Positions 357-8,155 of a stretch of DNA of 44,888 nucleotides are shown in pieces (within the stretch, counting starts at the first letter, position 1; every line of letters starts with the position of its first letter). The notes beneath the pieces were generated by a model, which saw nothing but the letters and a program-made list of their open reading frames with translations, searched no databases and had not been told where the DNA came from. A program made the translations under genes and the position numbers. The stretch covers positions 1 through 44,888 of the forward strand of contig CALUVI010000011.1 of NCBI GenBank assembly GCA_944324185.1, given 5' to 3'. The DNA comes from Candidatus Gastranaerophilales bacterium. Lineage in GTDB: Bacteria; Cyanobacteriota; Vampirovibrionia; Gastranaerophilales; Gastranaerophilaceae.

Positions 357-800
357 CTAAACGAATTCCCAACGATAGCCATAAGCTGTTTTTTGGCAAC
401 CACGACAGCAACGTCTTATTAAATCTAAATTACAATAATAGTTTTCTCTTACAAAAGCAACCCAATTACTTGCGGCTCTTACATTCTCAAATATTTGTCC
501 GGTTTCAAGACATCTGACCTTTTTTGATTGTTCTTGCAATGATTTGAATGGTTTTATTTTTTCCATAAGTAGATTAAATTTTTCAGAAGAGATTTTATAA
601 CTTCCCATTTTAATATCTTCCTGCTTGAGGATTGCTGTGTAAATCTTTTTAGATTTTATTGCTTTTTTATACAATGTTCTGTAAGGCTCTAAGTCTTTTT
701 GTATTTCATAAAAAATATCTTGCGGCGGTCTAAAGGTACCGATATGTGTTTCATTCTGCTTAAGTGTAACTGTACATCTGTTTTTCGCTTTCGTAGTCAT
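357..800 (-). CDS. NUMOD1-type DNA-binding protein of the mobile element
   Basis: A 147-aa protein. Its C-terminal third (about residues 95-147) has the pattern RCLETGQIFENVRAASNWV followed by IRRCCRGCQKTAYGYRWEFV. This matches the NUMOD1-type repeat found next to HNH and GIY-YIG homing endonucleases, in which a Cys/Glu-Thr-Gly strand leads into a helix-turn-helix and ends in a Gly-Tyr-x-Trp strand. No nuclease motif is present, so it is probably a DNA-binding accessory protein and not an endonuclease. The N-terminal 90 residues are Lys-rich and unrecognised. The start has a clear ribosome binding site (GAGAGGAAA) and overlaps the upstream LuxR-type gene by 41 bp, suggesting coupled translation. 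Confidence 0.6.
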   Translation of the reverse strand: MTTKAKNRCTVTLKQNETHIGTFRPPQDIFYEIQKDLEPYRTLYKKAIKSKKIYTAILKQEDIKMGSYKISSEKFNLLMEKIKPFKSLQEQSKKVRCLETGQIFENVRAASNWVAFVRENYYCNLDLIRRCCRGCQKTAYGYRWEFV

Positions 801-1047
801 AGATTTCCTCTCTTATTGCTTCGCATAAATCATTTTTATGCAATAATCCCATCTGTAATCCCATATAAACTGCATCTATTGCGGTATGAATTTCTCCGAG
901 AAAACAATATAAACGCCATTTTTGAAGTCTTGTGTTTGAGAGTGATAAACCCATTTTTCTTGCAATTTGTTTATTCTTATAACCTTTTGCTATCAGAATC
1001 AAAATTTGGTGTCTTCTATCAGTCATAGTTGCTCGATGCTTGTACAT
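760..1047 (-). CDS. Solo LuxR/GerE-type helix-turn-helix regulator
   Basis: A 95-aa protein, essentially one HTH domain. Residues about 10-75 follow the GerE/LuxR plan: DRRHQILILIAKGYKNKQIA, then MGLSLSNTRLQKW, then a dimerisation-like helix ending in YMGLQMGLL. There is no receiver or ligand-binding domain. Its position just upstream of other element genes, with a repeat-bearing non-coding stretch in front of it, suggests a transcription regulator of the element. The start at 1047 has the upstream site AAAGGAAAAAT; an internal ATG at 1026 is possible but has a poorer site. Family assignment is by motif; the target is inferred. Confidence 0.65.
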   Translation of the reverse strand: MYKHRATMTDRRHQILILIAKGYKNKQIARKMGLSLSNTRLQKWRLYCFLGEIHTAIDAVYMGLQMGLLHKNDLCEAIREEIYDYESEKQMYSYT

Positions 1048-1966: not shown

Positions 1967-2668
1967 TCAGAGACCCAGCAAATTAACTTTTAAATCTGCA
2001 TAAAGTTCTTCAAATTCTTTATTTCTCCTCCAAATTCCCTCGGCTAGTTTTTGGGGCAGGTCAACTTTGTTTGAATTGTGAGAGGTAAATCTCGTCAGAT
2101 AACTGTAAACCTTTTTGAATTCTTGAATTTCAGGTTTTGTAAATGCTTTTTCTTCAGGGCTTTGAAATAGATTTTCATTTACAAAGACCTGATTGTTGTA
2201 AACATAAAAAGAAAATTCCTCATCATAAAAAATTCTGTTTCTGCCTTGCTGCGGAGATTTATCATATAGTGATTTTAATTTATTTGTCTGCCGAGCGTAA
2301 ATTAACTCCCTAAAAATATAATATAATTGCATCGTAGAGCTTTCTGCAATACCAATTACATCTTTGGCTTTATATGCCGGAATTGAAAGGCAAAAACACC
2401 GTATTACAATATCCAAAATCTTTGCCGAATAATAAGATAATATGGCATATTTTTTATTAAAACTCTGTTTATTGTAAAAATACAGGTCATTTCTTAAAGT
2501 TAATTTTCCCTCTTGCACCAGAGTCAAGAGAAGTAACTCTAAAACACCCTCATCAACATCTTCCGCAATAGTGGAAATCTCATCAAGTGTAAATTTATCC
2601 AACCTTTTGCAAAGCCTTAATATTCTGTTTTCTTGGATTATTGACGGTTCAAAATCTTTGCACTCCAT
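1967..2668 (-). CDS. Uncharacterised element protein with winged-helix-like N-terminus
   Basis: A 233-aa protein I do not recognise. The start ATG overlaps the stop of the MuB-like gene (TAATG), so the two are translationally coupled. Residues about 20-70 (KFTLDEISTIAEDVDEGVLE, followed by a leucine-rich helix and a short basic strand) look like a winged helix-turn-helix. The middle (about 78-130) is helical and hydrophobic with a possible second HTH. The C-terminal part is charged. No catalytic motif or membrane segment stands out. Its place in the transposase-ATPase operon suggests an early DNA-binding or replication accessory protein; that is inference only. Confidence 0.6.
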   Translation of the reverse strand: MECKDFEPSIIQENRILRLCKRLDKFTLDEISTIAEDVDEGVLELLLLTLVQEGKLTLRNDLYFYNKQSFNKKYAILSYYSAKILDIVIRCFCLSIPAYKAKDVIGIAESSTMQLYYIFRELIYARQTNKLKSLYDKSPQQGRNRIFYDEEFSFYVYNNQVFVNENLFQSPEEKAFTKPEIQEFKKVYSYLTRFTSHNSNKVDLPQKLAEGIWRRNKEFEELYADLKVNLLGL

Positions 2669-3444
2669 TACGATTTACCTCCGGCAAATCTGCATTCCGT
2701 CAGATTTTTCACAGGGACGAGCTCGCTCACTCCGTTCGACTCCGCTCTTGTCAAAATCCGCCTTTCATTAAGCAGTTCTTTCAAAGTGTATTCATCTATT
2801 TCTTTAATTTTGTTAGTTTCAGACAATTTTTCTATTTTATTAATCAACTTAACCAACTGCCTGAACTGGTTTGTCCTTGTTGCAAGGTAATTAATGGCAT
2901 CAGGAGTAAACTCCAAATCCGTTATTTGTTGAAGAATGTCTGTAATATCGTCTTGATTAAATTGCTCAAACCTAAGTGTTTTATAGAGTCTGTCCACCAG
3001 ATGCGGATATCTTGCAAGTTTTTTATCTGCCGCACCCATCCCAACTAAAACTATCGGACAGGCTGTCCTGTCGTGCAAATCCCTTAATGTTTCAACGGTG
3101 TGTTTTTCAATCCAATAATCAATCTCATCAACAATGATTACTTTAGGATTTAAACGCAGGCTTTTTTCAATAACTTCAAAATTATCCTGTGCGTGCCAGT
3201 AAGGTTCTTCGCCAAGTTCTTCCGCTATTTCAGACAATAACCATTTAACGGTCATTCCCTGAGTTGCCCTTACATACACAGAATCGTTTTTATCCGCCCA
3301 CCACTGGATTGTCTGAGATTTTCCAAGCCCATGGTCGCCGTAAACTAATGCGAGTTTCGGAATATTCGGCGGAAGTTTCTGCAACTCATCCATCAAAGAT
3401 ACAAACCGCTTGACGTTTTTTGTTTTAATAAATGTTTTCTTCAT
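2668..3444 (-). CDS. MuB-like AAA ATPase, transposition target-selection protein
   Basis: About 258 aa. A Walker A motif (GDHGLGKS, residues 36-43) and Walker B motif (KVIIVDEID, 101-109) mark an AAA ATPase of the MuB/TniB class, and MuB-like proteins normally sit directly after the transposase as here. In Mu, MuB binds DNA with ATP, chooses targets and activates MuA. I chose the ATG at 3444 because GGAG lies 9 nt upstream; it overlaps the transposase end by 20 bp. An in-frame start at 3480 is possible but lacks a site. The last 30 residues are encoded by a more GC-rich stretch (about 2690-2765) unlike the rest of the gene. Confidence 0.82.
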   Translation of the reverse strand: MKKTFIKTKNVKRFVSLMDELQKLPPNIPKLALVYGDHGLGKSQTIQWWADKNDSVYVRATQGMTVKWLLSEIAEELGEEPYWHAQDNFEVIEKSLRLNPKVIIVDEIDYWIEKHTVETLRDLHDRTACPIVLVGMGAADKKLARYPHLVDRLYKTLRFEQFNQDDITDILQQITDLEFTPDAINYLATRTNQFRQLVKLINKIEKLSETNKIKEIDEYTLKELLNERRILTRAESNGVSELVPVKNLTECRFAGGKS

Positions 3445-5530
3445 AGTTTTCATCTCCGTATAAATTAATATATTCATCACTTCTTATGTAATCGGCGAGC
3501 CATTTTCTGTCTTCAGTATTTGTTGTTCCGTTTGTCATCAACCACTCATATTTTTCATAATTTGAATTGAACATCGGCACATTCATCTGCCGTTCACGAG
3601 GTGTTTGCTTCTTGGGGGCTCGCATTAAACGGCGTTGCGAGTCTTGCTCAACGCAAGCCTCTCCAGCCTCTGCTCGCCTCCGCTTCCGTTCACGTTTCGG
3701 CTTTGGTTGTTCTTCTATTTCTACAACCGGCTCCGGCTCAATTTCCAAAACCTCAGCTTTTTCACCCGGATAATATTTCAGAAATTCTTTTTTAGCCTTC
3801 TTAAACTGTCGCTGCTGTCTTTGGTACTGCTGTTTGTATTCCTCCATATCTTTTACGGTGCCGAGAACATTTGCCATCGGGTGAACTTTTTGAACCCTAT
3901 GTGCCACGCATAAAAATTCACCTTTCATTGAATAAACATGAACCTTTGAAAGGTCAAACAAACTGTATCGGACATAAACCTTATCCCGAAGTCCAAGAAT
4001 AACATCACTTCTGTAATGCATTCCGAGGAACGTTATTCCATGTTTGTTTATTGTCCTTGCCTCGGTTTTCATCATTAAATCATTGAGAATATTTTTATCT
4101 ATATCCTGTTTTTGAACGGTATTTAAACACTCTTTAATTGTCATACTTCTATCATTCGGGCAGGGCTTTGAATTGTGAAACTCAAGCCAGCAATCAATAA
4201 ATTTAATAGCCTCCTGAACTGTCGGAATGTAGTTTTTAGTTAGTTTTTTGTGCATCTCTCTGTGTAATTTCTCACCACGCTTTAACCACGCAGGTTTGTC
4301 TTCAATACTTGTTCCGATGTAACTTGTCATCATTTTTTCAAACTCCTCCTGAAATTCAAGGAAGAATCTTTCTATAACTTTTGCACGTGCATTGTATGGT
4401 TTAGCAAAAACGGAGCGGATACCTAAATTCGCATACACTCCGTTAAAGCCATCCTCGTCAAAGTCCACATTCTGAAAGTATTTAGATTTAAAAGCCTTTC
4501 CGTTATCCTGATACACTACTTTCGGGATTATTCCGAGATTTAAAATAGCATTCCTTAAAGCACTTGCTATGCACTGTGTATTTTCGCTCATCATAATTTC
4601 ATATCCTACGAGTGCTGTTGATTTCCAGTCTAAAAAACCGACTAAAGTTGCTCTGGTCGGCTTTCCTGTAAACGGATTTATTACTTGGAAGTTGAGAACA
4701 TGTCCGTCTGCGATTAACACATCTCCAACATTAAGAACTGAAATATCCCTCTCAATATACGCTTCCACTTTATCGTGGTATGCTTTTTCACCCTCTCTGA
4801 ATAATATCCATTGTGCATAATTATTCTTTTTGTAGTGTTCCGAAAATCGTCTGAAGGTCTGAATGCTTGGAATAGGTTCAATTCCTTGTTTTTCCAAAAT
4901 ATGTCGTGTAAGTTTTATCGCTTTTCCGACACTGAATTTATTGGGGTGCATGAGGAATTTAATAAATATATTTTTCATCTCCTGCGTGAGGATTGTGTTG
5001 TATTCATTTTGTTTTGAATATTTATACCCCGGCAAAAGCACTCTGTAATCTTCGCAATCTTCATAAGCCCAAAGCCAACGGTGAAGTGTACCGACAGAAA
5101 TACTCCCTATAAATTGATAAACTTTAGGTAAAAGCATTCCCGAATTATACAAATCTAAAAATATTGAATCCGCCTCTTTTTTGGTTTTGTATTTACCCCT
5201 GATGTTTTGTAAAGCCTTAACAACATCTACTCTTGCCAGTGCCGTTAATTTTGCACTCTCTGCAATAAATGTCGGATATTTTGGTTTTGTATCAAGCGGA
5301 ACTAATGCGGTACAACTTGATTGAGTAGCTTCTTTGATTAGTTCGTCTTGGAGTTTTTCCTGTACTTCAGGCTCTAAACTTGAATAAAGAATTTCATACG
5401 AAGTGCCACCAAAGACTTTTACCTCACGAGCAATATATTTATCCTTTTGAATAGCAAGCCTTAATGAGCGGTTGCTCGTTAATCCCTTTATCTCAGCTAT
5501 TTTATTTATGTTTATATATTCTTCAGCCAT
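3425..5530 (-). CDS. MuA-like DDE transposase
   Basis: About 701 aa, close to Mu MuA (663 aa). The N-terminus (INKIAEIKGLTSNRSLRLAI) is a MuA-type DNA-binding HTH. The RNase H-like core carries the DDE triad: Asp275 in LIADGH, Asp342 in YQDNGKAFK and Glu387 in KVIERFF; the spacing resembles MuA 269/336/392. A beta-barrel domain follows (around HYRSDVILGLRDKVYVRYS). The C-terminus (about 590-650) is a basic, low-complexity linker followed by a short tail, where MuA contacts MuB and ClpX. It binds element ends, cuts and strand-transfers. ATG 5530 is preferred over an in-frame GTG at 5539; neither has a good ribosome site. Confidence 0.92.
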   Translation of the reverse strand: MAEEYININKIAEIKGLTSNRSLRLAIQKDKYIAREVKVFGGTSYEILYSSLEPEVQEKLQDELIKEATQSSCTALVPLDTKPKYPTFIAESAKLTALARVDVVKALQNIRGKYKTKKEADSIFLDLYNSGMLLPKVYQFIGSISVGTLHRWLWAYEDCEDYRVLLPGYKYSKQNEYNTILTQEMKNIFIKFLMHPNKFSVGKAIKLTRHILEKQGIEPIPSIQTFRRFSEHYKKNNYAQWILFREGEKAYHDKVEAYIERDISVLNVGDVLIADGHVLNFQVINPFTGKPTRATLVGFLDWKSTALVGYEIMMSENTQCIASALRNAILNLGIIPKVVYQDNGKAFKSKYFQNVDFDEDGFNGVYANLGIRSVFAKPYNARAKVIERFFLEFQEEFEKMMTSYIGTSIEDKPAWLKRGEKLHREMHKKLTKNYIPTVQEAIKFIDCWLEFHNSKPCPNDRSMTIKECLNTVQKQDIDKNILNDLMMKTEARTINKHGITFLGMHYRSDVILGLRDKVYVRYSLFDLSKVHVYSMKGEFLCVAHRVQKVHPMANVLGTVKDMEEYKQQYQRQQRQFKKAKKEFLKYYPGEKAEVLEIEPEPVVEIEEQPKPKRERKRRRAEAGEACVEQDSQRRLMRAPKKQTPRERQMNVPMFNSNYEKYEWLMTNGTTNTEDRKWLADYIRSDEYINLYGDENYEENIY

Positions 5531-5603
5531 CGTACACACACGATAACTCTGAAGACAAAAGAATGGAACACCATTTCCGAGCTTTGTGTCGGTTTCGTAT
5601 CAA

Positions 5604-6047
5604 TTAATTTAAAAATCCGCTTAGGACAAGTTTTTCTTGTATATGAGCTAAGTCATCGGGTGATAAATTTTGATAAAAATAACATTTAATTATAGGTTGC
5701 TCTAAATCAGCACGCATTACATATGGAAGTTCATTAAATGTTTTACCAGTTAATTCCGGCAAGGATTCGACTCTGAATAATTTATATTTATTATTAACGT
5801 AATCAATTAATGCTTTAAAATTATTATATCCATAGAATGGTCTATATTTACCATCAGCACTTAACACAAAGAATACAGATATATCCGGTCGCATTTTTGT
5901 TAAGAGCAATTCTATTAGCATTGATTTTTGTAATTTCCCAAGAAAACTTTTATGTTCCGGTCTAAATTTATAATCTATATTTTCATCATTCAAAATATCT
6001 TTAACCGATTTATATTCAGGTTGACATTGGTAATTTATAAGTTTCAT
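5604..6047 (-). CDS. Degenerate DUF262 (GmrS/ParB-like) protein at the element end
   Basis: A 147-aa protein in the place where Mu carries its repressor and ner genes. Residues about 28-110 follow the N-terminal DUF262 plan known from type IV restriction GmrSD-type proteins: a helix (LQKSMLIELLLTKMRPDISV), a strand turn (ADGKYRPFYGYNNFKALIDY), then KYKLFRVESLPELTGKTF and NELP. The family hallmark Asp-Gly-Gln-Gln-Arg is here YGYNN (residues 72-76), so nucleotide hydrolysis is unlikely. The start at 6047 is set by GGAG five bases upstream. It could be a regulator, a decoy or inhibitor of host DUF262 systems, or an early accessory protein. Family assignment is by pattern memory; function is inference. 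Confidence 0.6.
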   Translation of the reverse strand: MKLINYQCQPEYKSVKDILNDENIDYKFRPEHKSFLGKLQKSMLIELLLTKMRPDISVFFVLSADGKYRPFYGYNNFKALIDYVNNKYKLFRVESLPELTGKTFNELPYVMRADLEQPIIKCYFYQNLSPDDLAHIQEKLVLSGFLN

Positions 6048-6124
6048 GATGGCTCCGTATTTTAAATTCAACTAGACCATAAACACAGAAAATTTTAAAG
6101 TTTTTACTTCCGTCCTAAAGAAAA

Positions 6125-6393
6125 TTTTTCCGACCTCGTTTTAAATTTTTCTAAAAATTTGCGGAACTGGACTATTCCGAAATAATCAAATTATCCGTAC
6201 AACTCAAAAACGGTGCGTATCTCACTGAAATTCTGCAAATCTCAATCTATCCGTACAGTCCAGAAAAAGTCCAGTTTCCCAGTTTGATTTTTTTGGTAAA
6301 CTTAATTTTTCCGACCCGGAAACTCCCACACAAAGCCAACTTTACCAAAATAATCTATCTATCCGTACAAATCAATCTGGACAAAAAAGTACA
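6125..6393 (-). repeat. Mu-like element end with repeated transposase-binding candidates
   Basis: The 9-mer ATCCGTACA occurs at 6193-6201, 6249-6257 and 6361-6369; start-to-start distances are 56 and 112 bp, that is one and two times 56. TTTTTCCGACC occurs at 6125-6135 and 6306-6316, and GTCCAG-type words recur. The minus strand from 6393 starts TGTAC. Multiple spaced copies of one motif just inside a terminus are what MuA-type transposases bind. No gene lies between 6048 and the tRNA. Confidence 0.6.
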
Positions 6394-6460
6394 CCTCCGC
6401 CCTTAGCTCCCTCACGCAACCCGCGAATTAGGCGGTTTCTCATCATTACCTTTTAAATAA

Positions 6461-6490
6461 AAAAGGCTTAGCCAAAAGCTAAGCCTTTTT
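6461..6490 (-). terminator. Intrinsic terminator after tRNA-Ser
   Basis: AAAAAGGCTTAGC and GCTAAGCCTTTTT flank a short loop and give a hairpin with a T-run on either strand. On the minus strand it lies a few bases after the tRNA 3' end and would end the cysS-spoIID-murJ-tRNA transcript. It may also stop readthrough to or from the mobile element. Confidence 0.8.
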
Positions 6491-6494
6491 TATT

Positions 6495-6581
6495 CGGAGA
6501 AGGCGGGATTCGAACCCGCGGGGGGCTTTCGCCCCCACAAATTTTCGAGATTTGCACCTTAAACCGCTCGGACACTTCTCC
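6495..6581 (-). tRNA. tRNA-Ser (anticodon CGA)
   Basis: The 87-nt minus-strand sequence folds as a class II tRNA. The acceptor stem GGAGAAG pairs with CTTCTCC, with discriminator G. The D-arm region is followed by an anticodon stem CAAAT/ATTTG with loop CTCGAAA (anticodon CGA, reading UCG). A long variable arm with GGGGGC/GCCCCC and a T-arm with GGTTCGAATCC follow. CCA is not encoded. It starts two bases after the murJ stop codon, so it probably shares that transcript unless an internal promoter exists. Confidence 0.95.
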
Positions 6582-6583
6582 AG

Positions 6584-8155
6584 TTATCGTTTTATTCTAT
6601 CAGCCAGCTCTTTTGCGTATTCCATCTTAAATACCAGATTTAAAACAGTATAAATTCCGAGAGCTGATATCATTACTATAATTATTTTTACTATTTCAAA
6701 AACGTATTTTGGTAATTCCATACTATCACAACCCTTGCCGATAAACCAGCAGGCTGCAAATGTAATTATTCCCGCGATAACCATTTTTGCAAGGTTTATA
6801 AATAATGATTTATAATCCAGTTTTATTTTTTTATGTATAAATAGTCCAAGAAAAGTCGCATTAAATAAAGTTACAAATGACGTAGAAAGGGTAATTCCTG
6901 CAATTCCCATATCAAGTTTCAAGATTAAAAGCCAGTTCAGGATTGCTTTAAGCCCGATTGACGACATTGCAATTACAAAAGGTGTTTTAGAATCATTAAA
7001 CGCATAGTAAACTCTTGTTATAGAATCTCTGAAAACATACGGCAATATGGAGATTGAGAGGAAACACAAAGCTTCAGATACCATTACAACAGCATTAGCA
7101 TTGAACGCGCCGCGCTCAAATATAAGTGATATCCCGTCTTTTGCAAGAAGAAGTATCAGAATAAACATTGGAATGCCGACAAAAAACAACACACCGACAC
7201 CTTTATTAAAATATTTTTTTATTGCGTCTAAATCTCCTTCACCCGCAAGCCTTGAAAATATCGGGAAAAGAGGAACAAGAAACGCTGTAACCAGGATGCC
7301 TACCGGGAATTGGAAAATTCTGTTTGCAAAAACAACAGAAGTCCACGCGCCTTCCTTGAGAGTGGAGGCAAAAAACATATCTATATAAATACTTATCTGA
7401 CCGATTGTAGAACTCAATATTGCAGGGAAAAGAAGCTCGCAGATATTTTTGAACTGCGGATTGTTCCTGATATCAAGATTAGGCTTAATTCTATAACCTA
7501 TCTGCCTGATTTTCGGGAATTGTACAACAAGCTGGCATATTGCGCCGAGAGTTGTAGCTCCCGCAAGTACCACACCGGTTTTGTCATTACGAACAAGTGA
7601 TATTACTATAATCACAACCGTGCTCAGAATCATTGGCGAGAGGTTCGGCAAAATATACTGCTTATGGCAAATCAAAAGCCCGTAGTAAATTCCGATAATT
7701 CCGCCGATAAGAATAATCGGAGACATTATTCTAAAGTGTTCCGAGGCAAGCGCTACAAGCTCCGGCGCGCCTGCTGAGATTATAATCCCCATTATTTTAT
7801 CTGCAAAAAAGAAACCTAAGATTGCGCAAGCAGCAAAAAATATAAAAGATACCGTCAAAAATGTATTATAAAGCCTGTTTACAACCTCATCCGGTTTAGA
7901 GTCAAAATCCGGTATCAGCTTTGAAAATACGGCAACCGCTGCACTATGAAAAGGACCTCCGACTCCGCCTAAGATAATGATTGCAAGCGACGGTATTTGA
8001 AGCGCGTAGAAATAAGCATCAGATACGAGAGTTGCGCCGTAAAAATTTGCAACGACCATATCTCTTACAAACCCCATAAACTTGCTTGCAACGGTTACAA
8101 GTGCAATGAGCCATGCGGCTTTTAAAACGCTAACTTCCTTATTCGTCTCTGTCAT
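6584..8155 (-). CDS. murJ: Lipid II flippase MurJ (MviN family)
   Basis: A 523-aa polytopic membrane protein with about 14 hydrophobic segments, the expected size for MurJ (about 510-530). The N-terminus (AAWLIALVTVASKFMGFVRD then VANFYGATLVSDAYFYALQIP) is the conserved MviN start, with the Arg and Asp of the first helix. MurJ moves lipid-linked peptidoglycan precursors across the inner membrane. It overlaps the upstream SpoIID-type gene by 17 bp, and tRNA-Ser follows two bases after its stop, so it lies in a cysS-spoIID-murJ-tRNA transcription unit. The ribosome site (GTAGAAAAGT) is weak, consistent with translational coupling. Confidence 0.93.
   Translation of the reverse strand: MTETNKEVSVLKAAWLIALVTVASKFMGFVRDMVVANFYGATLVSDAYFYALQIPSLAIIILGGVGGPFHSAAVAVFSKLIPDFDSKPDEVVNRLYNTFLTVSFIFFAACAILGFFFADKIMGIIISAGAPELVALASEHFRIMSPIILIGGIIGIYYGLLICHKQYILPNLSPMILSTVVIIVISLVRNDKTGVVLAGATTLGAICQLVVQFPKIRQIGYRIKPNLDIRNNPQFKNICELLFPAILSSTIGQISIYIDMFFASTLKEGAWTSVVFANRIFQFPVGILVTAFLVPLFPIFSRLAGEGDLDAIKKYFNKGVGVLFFVGIPMFILILLLAKDGISLIFERGAFNANAVVMVSEALCFLSISILPYVFRDSITRVYYAFNDSKTPFVIAMSSIGLKAILNWLLILKLDMGIAGITLSTSFVTLFNATFLGLFIHKKIKLDYKSLFINLAKMVIAGIITFAACWFIGKGCDSMELPKYVFEIVKIIIVMISALGIYTVLNLVFKMEYAKELADRIKR

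Follow-up and report, generated by a model that had tools for sequence, protein, structure and literature searches.

A diverged DUF262 domain without its signature motifs between the left end and the transposase gene of a Mu/Tn7-like transposon from Gastranaerophilales

DUF262 domains occur in many defence systems, among them GmrSD, BrxU, SspE, Menshen, Dazbog and PD-T4-2, and BrxU forms dimers that are controlled by NTP (PMC10952713). The GmrS proteins carry three motifs, QR, (I/V)DGQQR and FxxxN, and DGQQR is found in nearly 100% of them (Machnicka et al., PMC4619093). The protein described here is encoded on the reverse strand (5604–6047) of a 44,888-nucleotide stretch, termed the window, from a Candidatus Gastranaerophilales genome of 1.97 Mb. 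It consists of 147 residues and represents a degenerate, single-domain DUF262 protein of the GmrSD_N or NsnA type, as assigned from HMM and PADLOC matches, a compatible structural model, an orthologue and dN/dS.

The closest curated family is NsnA of the Menshen system (PADLOC PDLC03877; E 8e-8), and not GmrSD, which the initial annotation had named as the target. The N-terminal DUF262 domain is common to both proteins, residues 37–132 aligning with 79–174 of NsnA. However, NsnA has about 385 residues, the second half of which is absent here together with DGQQR, and no nsnB or nsnC adjoins; where a Menshen locus combines nsnA, nsnB and nsnC, the neighbours are MuA, MuB and a third reading frame, ORF3. 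GmrS/GmrSD, BrxU and SspE (PF03235, GmrSD_N) share the predicted fold, BrxU and SspE being among the best structural matches of the model (Z 7.0–7.5). In contrast to these, the 147-residue protein lies below Pfam detection and lacks QR, DGQQR, FxxxN and the DUF1524/HNH half; Pfam returned no DUF1524 match in the gene or in its element neighbours either.

Membership of the DUF262 family was examined with sequence profiles and structure prediction. A Pfam search gave no DUF262 match even at E 1; its NYN match (E 0.13) was taken as chance given the DUF262 evidence. In addition to PADLOC NsnA, which also matches the orthologue described below (E 2e-5), phrog_2598, a PHROG family without assigned function, matches the protein with E 9e-5. 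A custom HMM, built from nine intact DUF262 proteins of the same order with the query left out, gave 46.5 bits over residues 12–137 and 42.2 bits for the orthologue. By comparison, the top-scoring one among 20,000 shuffled copies reached 16.3 bits and the next ORF of those listed 14.0 bits. Below the orthologue, the weak tblastn matches are full-length DUF262 proteins with intact DGQQR or DGFQR (L003, L004, L007, L011, L014). These results bear out the family likeness proposed initially and widen its span from about 80 to about 125 residues.

When AlphaFold was given just the two orthologous sequences, the resulting model was too poor for use (pLDDT 35.5). Addition of 39 DUF262 relatives raised pLDDT to 88.8 (pTM 0.82), but because the alignment then already held DUF262 proteins, this model is compatible with the fold and no independent proof of it. 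The comparison of predicted structure and DUF262 fold that had been called for thus came out positive under that proviso: the best structural matches among those listed, BrxU, PadC, SspE, ParB, KorB and sulfiredoxin, all belong to the ParB/Srx fold, with Z up to 7.5. Since these Z scores stay below 8, fold membership leans first on the sequence profiles. We conclude that the product genuinely belongs to the DUF262/GmrSD_N domains (ParB/Srx fold), though as a strongly diverged member, and that its ancestry is NsnA/GmrS.

All three signature motifs are missing. The equivalent of VIDGQQRLTAI reads RPFYGYNNFKALI here (residues 69–81, approximate; 5807–5845, reverse strand, located by alignment). 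The replacement of DGQQR by YGYNN was noticed at the outset and is correct, and the NTP-binding motif is lost with it; the orthologue is likewise changed, to YGYNQ. At the PxFQR position the two proteins have RPEHK and RPEDE, respectively. FxxxN is absent as the chain stops at the point where FxRxNTG would start. With QR, DGQQR and FxxxN lost, an active NTPase is not expected. Neither Pfam nor PHROG revealed an HTH in the protein, and its predicted fold comprises the ParB/Srx N-domain only.

Relatives of the gene were searched for by tblastn in 286 genomes of the order. A single orthologue was found, in another Candidatus Gastranaerophilales MAG (G046), with the same 147 residues, about 68–69% identity and the same position in its element; the sole relative returned by a genome-contig search was this same locus, and scans of viral contigs with the protein and with its alignment gave no relatives. 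Of the 118 base differences between the orthologues 64 fall on third positions, whereas the maximum in 10,000 random placements was 56. The pair has a dN/dS of about 0.16, a rough ratio in view of dS 1.36. Conservation is highest in residues 85–126 (37 of 42). Hence, the gene is maintained by purifying selection. Matches to a Moraxella phage and to Klebsiella plasmids were weak and were set aside, the Klebsiella ones being annotated as DUF262 proteins. Separately, 23-residue matches of 70–74% were seen in five genomes (L006, L008–L010, G046:C10), as a short segment in a 52-residue frame for which Rfam gave no match at that place; in L006 (1501–1569, and also in L008, L009 and L010) the translation resembles residues 31–53 at 74%, which is too short for interpretation.

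The same observations bear on the suspicion that an nsnA-like gene was once captured and is now merely decaying, without any function. Truncation, lost motifs, low GC content and only two known copies would fit such a remnant. On the other hand, the frame is intact, opening with an ATG at 6047 and a GGAG ribosome site a little upstream, and the orthologue is equally long. Given in addition the identical placement of the orthologue, a third-position bias that none of the 10,000 simulations reached and the low dN/dS, the gene is no decaying pseudogene, and we consider absence of function very improbable.

The gene lies in a transposon whose left end occupies 6134–6393 on the reverse strand, as recognised by homologous ends in relatives. 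Its terminus at 6393 (TGTAC; TGTACTTTTTTGTCC) is accompanied by TGTACGGATA-type repeats at 6369, 6257 and 6201, which are likely transposase-binding sites. The element reads on, always on the reverse strand, through the 147-residue gene, a MuA/TnsB-like DDE transposase (3425–5539; Mu-transpos_C E 2e-15, phrog_310 E 4e-120), a MuB/TniB-like AAA ATPase (2668–3480; AAA_22, TniB, phrog_296 E 7e-47), ORF3 (1967–2668), which encodes 233 residues without a Pfam match and follows MuB in relatives too, and a tyrosine recombinase of 180 residues (1309–1851; Phage_integrase E 1e-23). The gene is therefore, as annotated initially, the first inside the element end; it is co-directional with the MuA-like gene, which starts about 65 bp downstream. 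A promoter scan of 5400–6600 gave a result no better than shuffles. A 95-residue GerE/HTH protein of the window (760–1047) matches phrog_28434 almost perfectly (E 8e-64). Small tyrosine recombinase genes, several of them in series, were noted on the far side of the element (L071, 6474–9335; window, 1309–1851).

Relatives of the transposase are present in 191 of the 286 genomes, often in multiple copies per genome. In the window, a tRNA-Ser(CGA) gene (6494–6582, reverse strand) points its 3' end toward the left end from 100 bp away. The same arrangement, with a same-strand tRNA gene upstream of the transposase, was found in 24 of 31 and 30 of 60 copies in two read sets (54 of 91; the window, L036–L065 and L086–L145). 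These adjacent tRNAs, which point at the left end, are of many kinds, among them Ser, Arg, Met, Asn, Gln, Gly, Phe, Asp, Ala, Ile, Leu and Val isotypes. In the cyanobacterial CAST V-K and I-D elements, too, the left end is preceded by a tRNA gene aimed at the element (PMC9938897, PMC10293859). The present elements differ from them in gene order and in ORF3, and no CRISPR array or cas gene was noticed in passing in the elements that were read.

Two complete relatives are flanked by 5-bp duplications and measure 15.4 kb (L083; TCACT) and 15.8 kb (L076; CTCAA). The cargo of the former, read by eye from the sequence, includes HsdR/M/S-like proteins (type I RM) and a DarT/DarG-like pair, and its gene list contains no obvious head, tail or other phage structural genes. 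We therefore treat the carrier family as Mu/Tn7-like transposons that insert downstream of tRNA genes and are able to bear defence cargo. The window copy is incomplete and runs off the contig; the copy in the orthologue's genome is followed by a Mu-like phage. "Mu-like" holds for the transposase of the element, but the carrier family consists of transposons and is not shown to be a phage. The description of the gene as phage-borne is therefore not supported and is better replaced by transposon-borne, although carriage by a phage stays conceivable for the window copy. In three loci (L076, L079, L082; at about 6.7–9.1 kb of the oriented loci), ORF3 is followed by a second MuA-like protein of 651–664 residues and this in turn by an HTH-like protein of 136–143 residues, inside the transposon.

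In related elements, the slot that separates the left end from MuA is either empty or filled with one of several protein types. In one related subfamily it holds divergent XRE-type HTH genes (Pfam HTH_3; L133, L135, L139, L142, L143, L145). HU-family proteins (PF00216, E 3e-32) occupy it in three further copies (L109, 2093–2368; L110; L111); Mu transposition uses HU. A Vsr endonuclease (L107) and acetyltransferases (L096, L097) were also found. Since exact left ends are unfixed for some copies, a few of these contents, those of L097 and L107 in particular, lie only probably inside the element. Further proteins of 93, 110, 150, 172 and 203 residues have no assigned Pfam names.

In two genomes (G043 and G165) the slot contains a second small DUF262 protein, of 151 residues, with DGYNR (L043; L086:290–745). 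The two copies are 99% identical and NsnA-like by PADLOC. They resemble the 147-residue protein in slot, truncation point and size, with 24% identity over 127 residues, but are encoded on the opposite strand, score above the Pfam cut-off and keep D-G-x-x-R.

The survey of related elements proposed initially thus found one orthologue in the same place, whereas the nearest transposases, at 92–93% identity, lack the gene, their slot being empty or taken up by something else. In the MuA tree the two carriers of the gene fall into different clades whose nearest members are without it. GC content is 27% for the gene, 25.5% for its orthologue and 25.4% for the DGYNR protein, while MuA and MuB of the window have 37–39%. 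Because of the variable slot, the nearest transposases without the gene and a GC content about 10 points below that of the core genes, the gene is an exchangeable accessory gene, rather than the fixed regulator of the element.

This bears directly on a role in regulation, according to which a DUF262 remnant has been repurposed as a transposase regulator or accessory factor that would bind MuA, MuB or the element end, in the slot of Mu c and ner. The repressor-like position claimed at first is right as to placement, and the HTH genes in the slot of one subfamily parallel c of Mu. The short co-directional spacing to MuA and the HU proteins of other copies point the same way, as do the ParB-fold proteins PadC and KorB among the fold matches and the regulators, such as CvkR, that CAST transposons bear (PMC9938897). 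Yet the gene is dispensable, as transposases of 92–93% identity do without it and the slot turns over while the transposase stays. The idea of a DNA-binding regulator in particular is weakened by the lack of an HTH and by unconserved charge (pI 8.4 against 4.6 between the two orthologues), and the GC content is far from that of the core genes. A regulatory function is therefore possible but rather doubtful. Another candidate role is that of an orphan defence subunit, in which a pseudoenzyme DUF262 module would sense modified or foreign DNA in partnership with other cargo or a host protein. Such a subunit would suit a transposon family that bears type I RM, a DarTG-like pair and Vsr and whose slot elsewhere holds the NsnA-like DGYNR protein; moreover, one type IV enzyme requires two GmrS homologues (PMC12373910). 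MuA directly follows the gene, however, so that no partner gene is adjacent, and the NTP motif is lost although nearly invariant in GmrS proteins (PMC4619093). We regard this role as rather unlikely, though as no less probable than regulation.

The reading we prefer, the most likely of those considered and tentative nonetheless, is that the protein is a non-catalytic module interfering with host DUF262 defence of the NsnA type. As it has neither catalytic residues nor a DNA-binding HTH, it would act through binding of another protein. The most likely partner would be a DUF262 NTPase of host defence, that is, NsnA of Menshen-type systems; pairing with the 147-residue protein would poison this partner and protect a newly arrived element. 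Interference is favoured on the grounds that the closest curated family belongs to a defence system as one of its subunits, that the order contains a complete Menshen nsnABC (G009) as well as full-length proteins of the NsnA type (several genomes), and that DUF262 proteins form pairs or dimers. By analogy with the BrxU dimers and the two GmrS homologues of the type IV enzyme, pairing between two DUF262 proteins seems plausible, and the second small DUF262 protein of equal size in the same slot was also counted in favour.

Against interference, a search for NsnA in the window genome returned no match besides the gene itself and in the orthologue's genome distant matches only, and just two copies of the gene are known. 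Furthermore, the GmrSD inhibitors Ip1–3 are, in the accessible part of their description, not presented as DUF262 homologues, and are there stated to have no homology to one another beyond the leader (PMC12373910). The window genome does encode one divergent DUF262 protein of 364 residues, with DGVNR, whose best PADLOC match is the Orf5 model (E 3e-19). More specifically, a pseudoenzyme derived from a defence sensor domain may form dead pairs and so constitute a homologous, dominant-negative kind of anti-defence, two types of which would have been recruited recurrently to the end-proximal slot; this we put forward with low confidence.

The carrier family is itself noteworthy as a transposon that apparently homes to tRNA genes. 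A conserved DUF262 domain that has lost its motifs and is borne by a mobile element offers a ready candidate, either for a homologous inhibitor or for a pseudoenzyme regulator.
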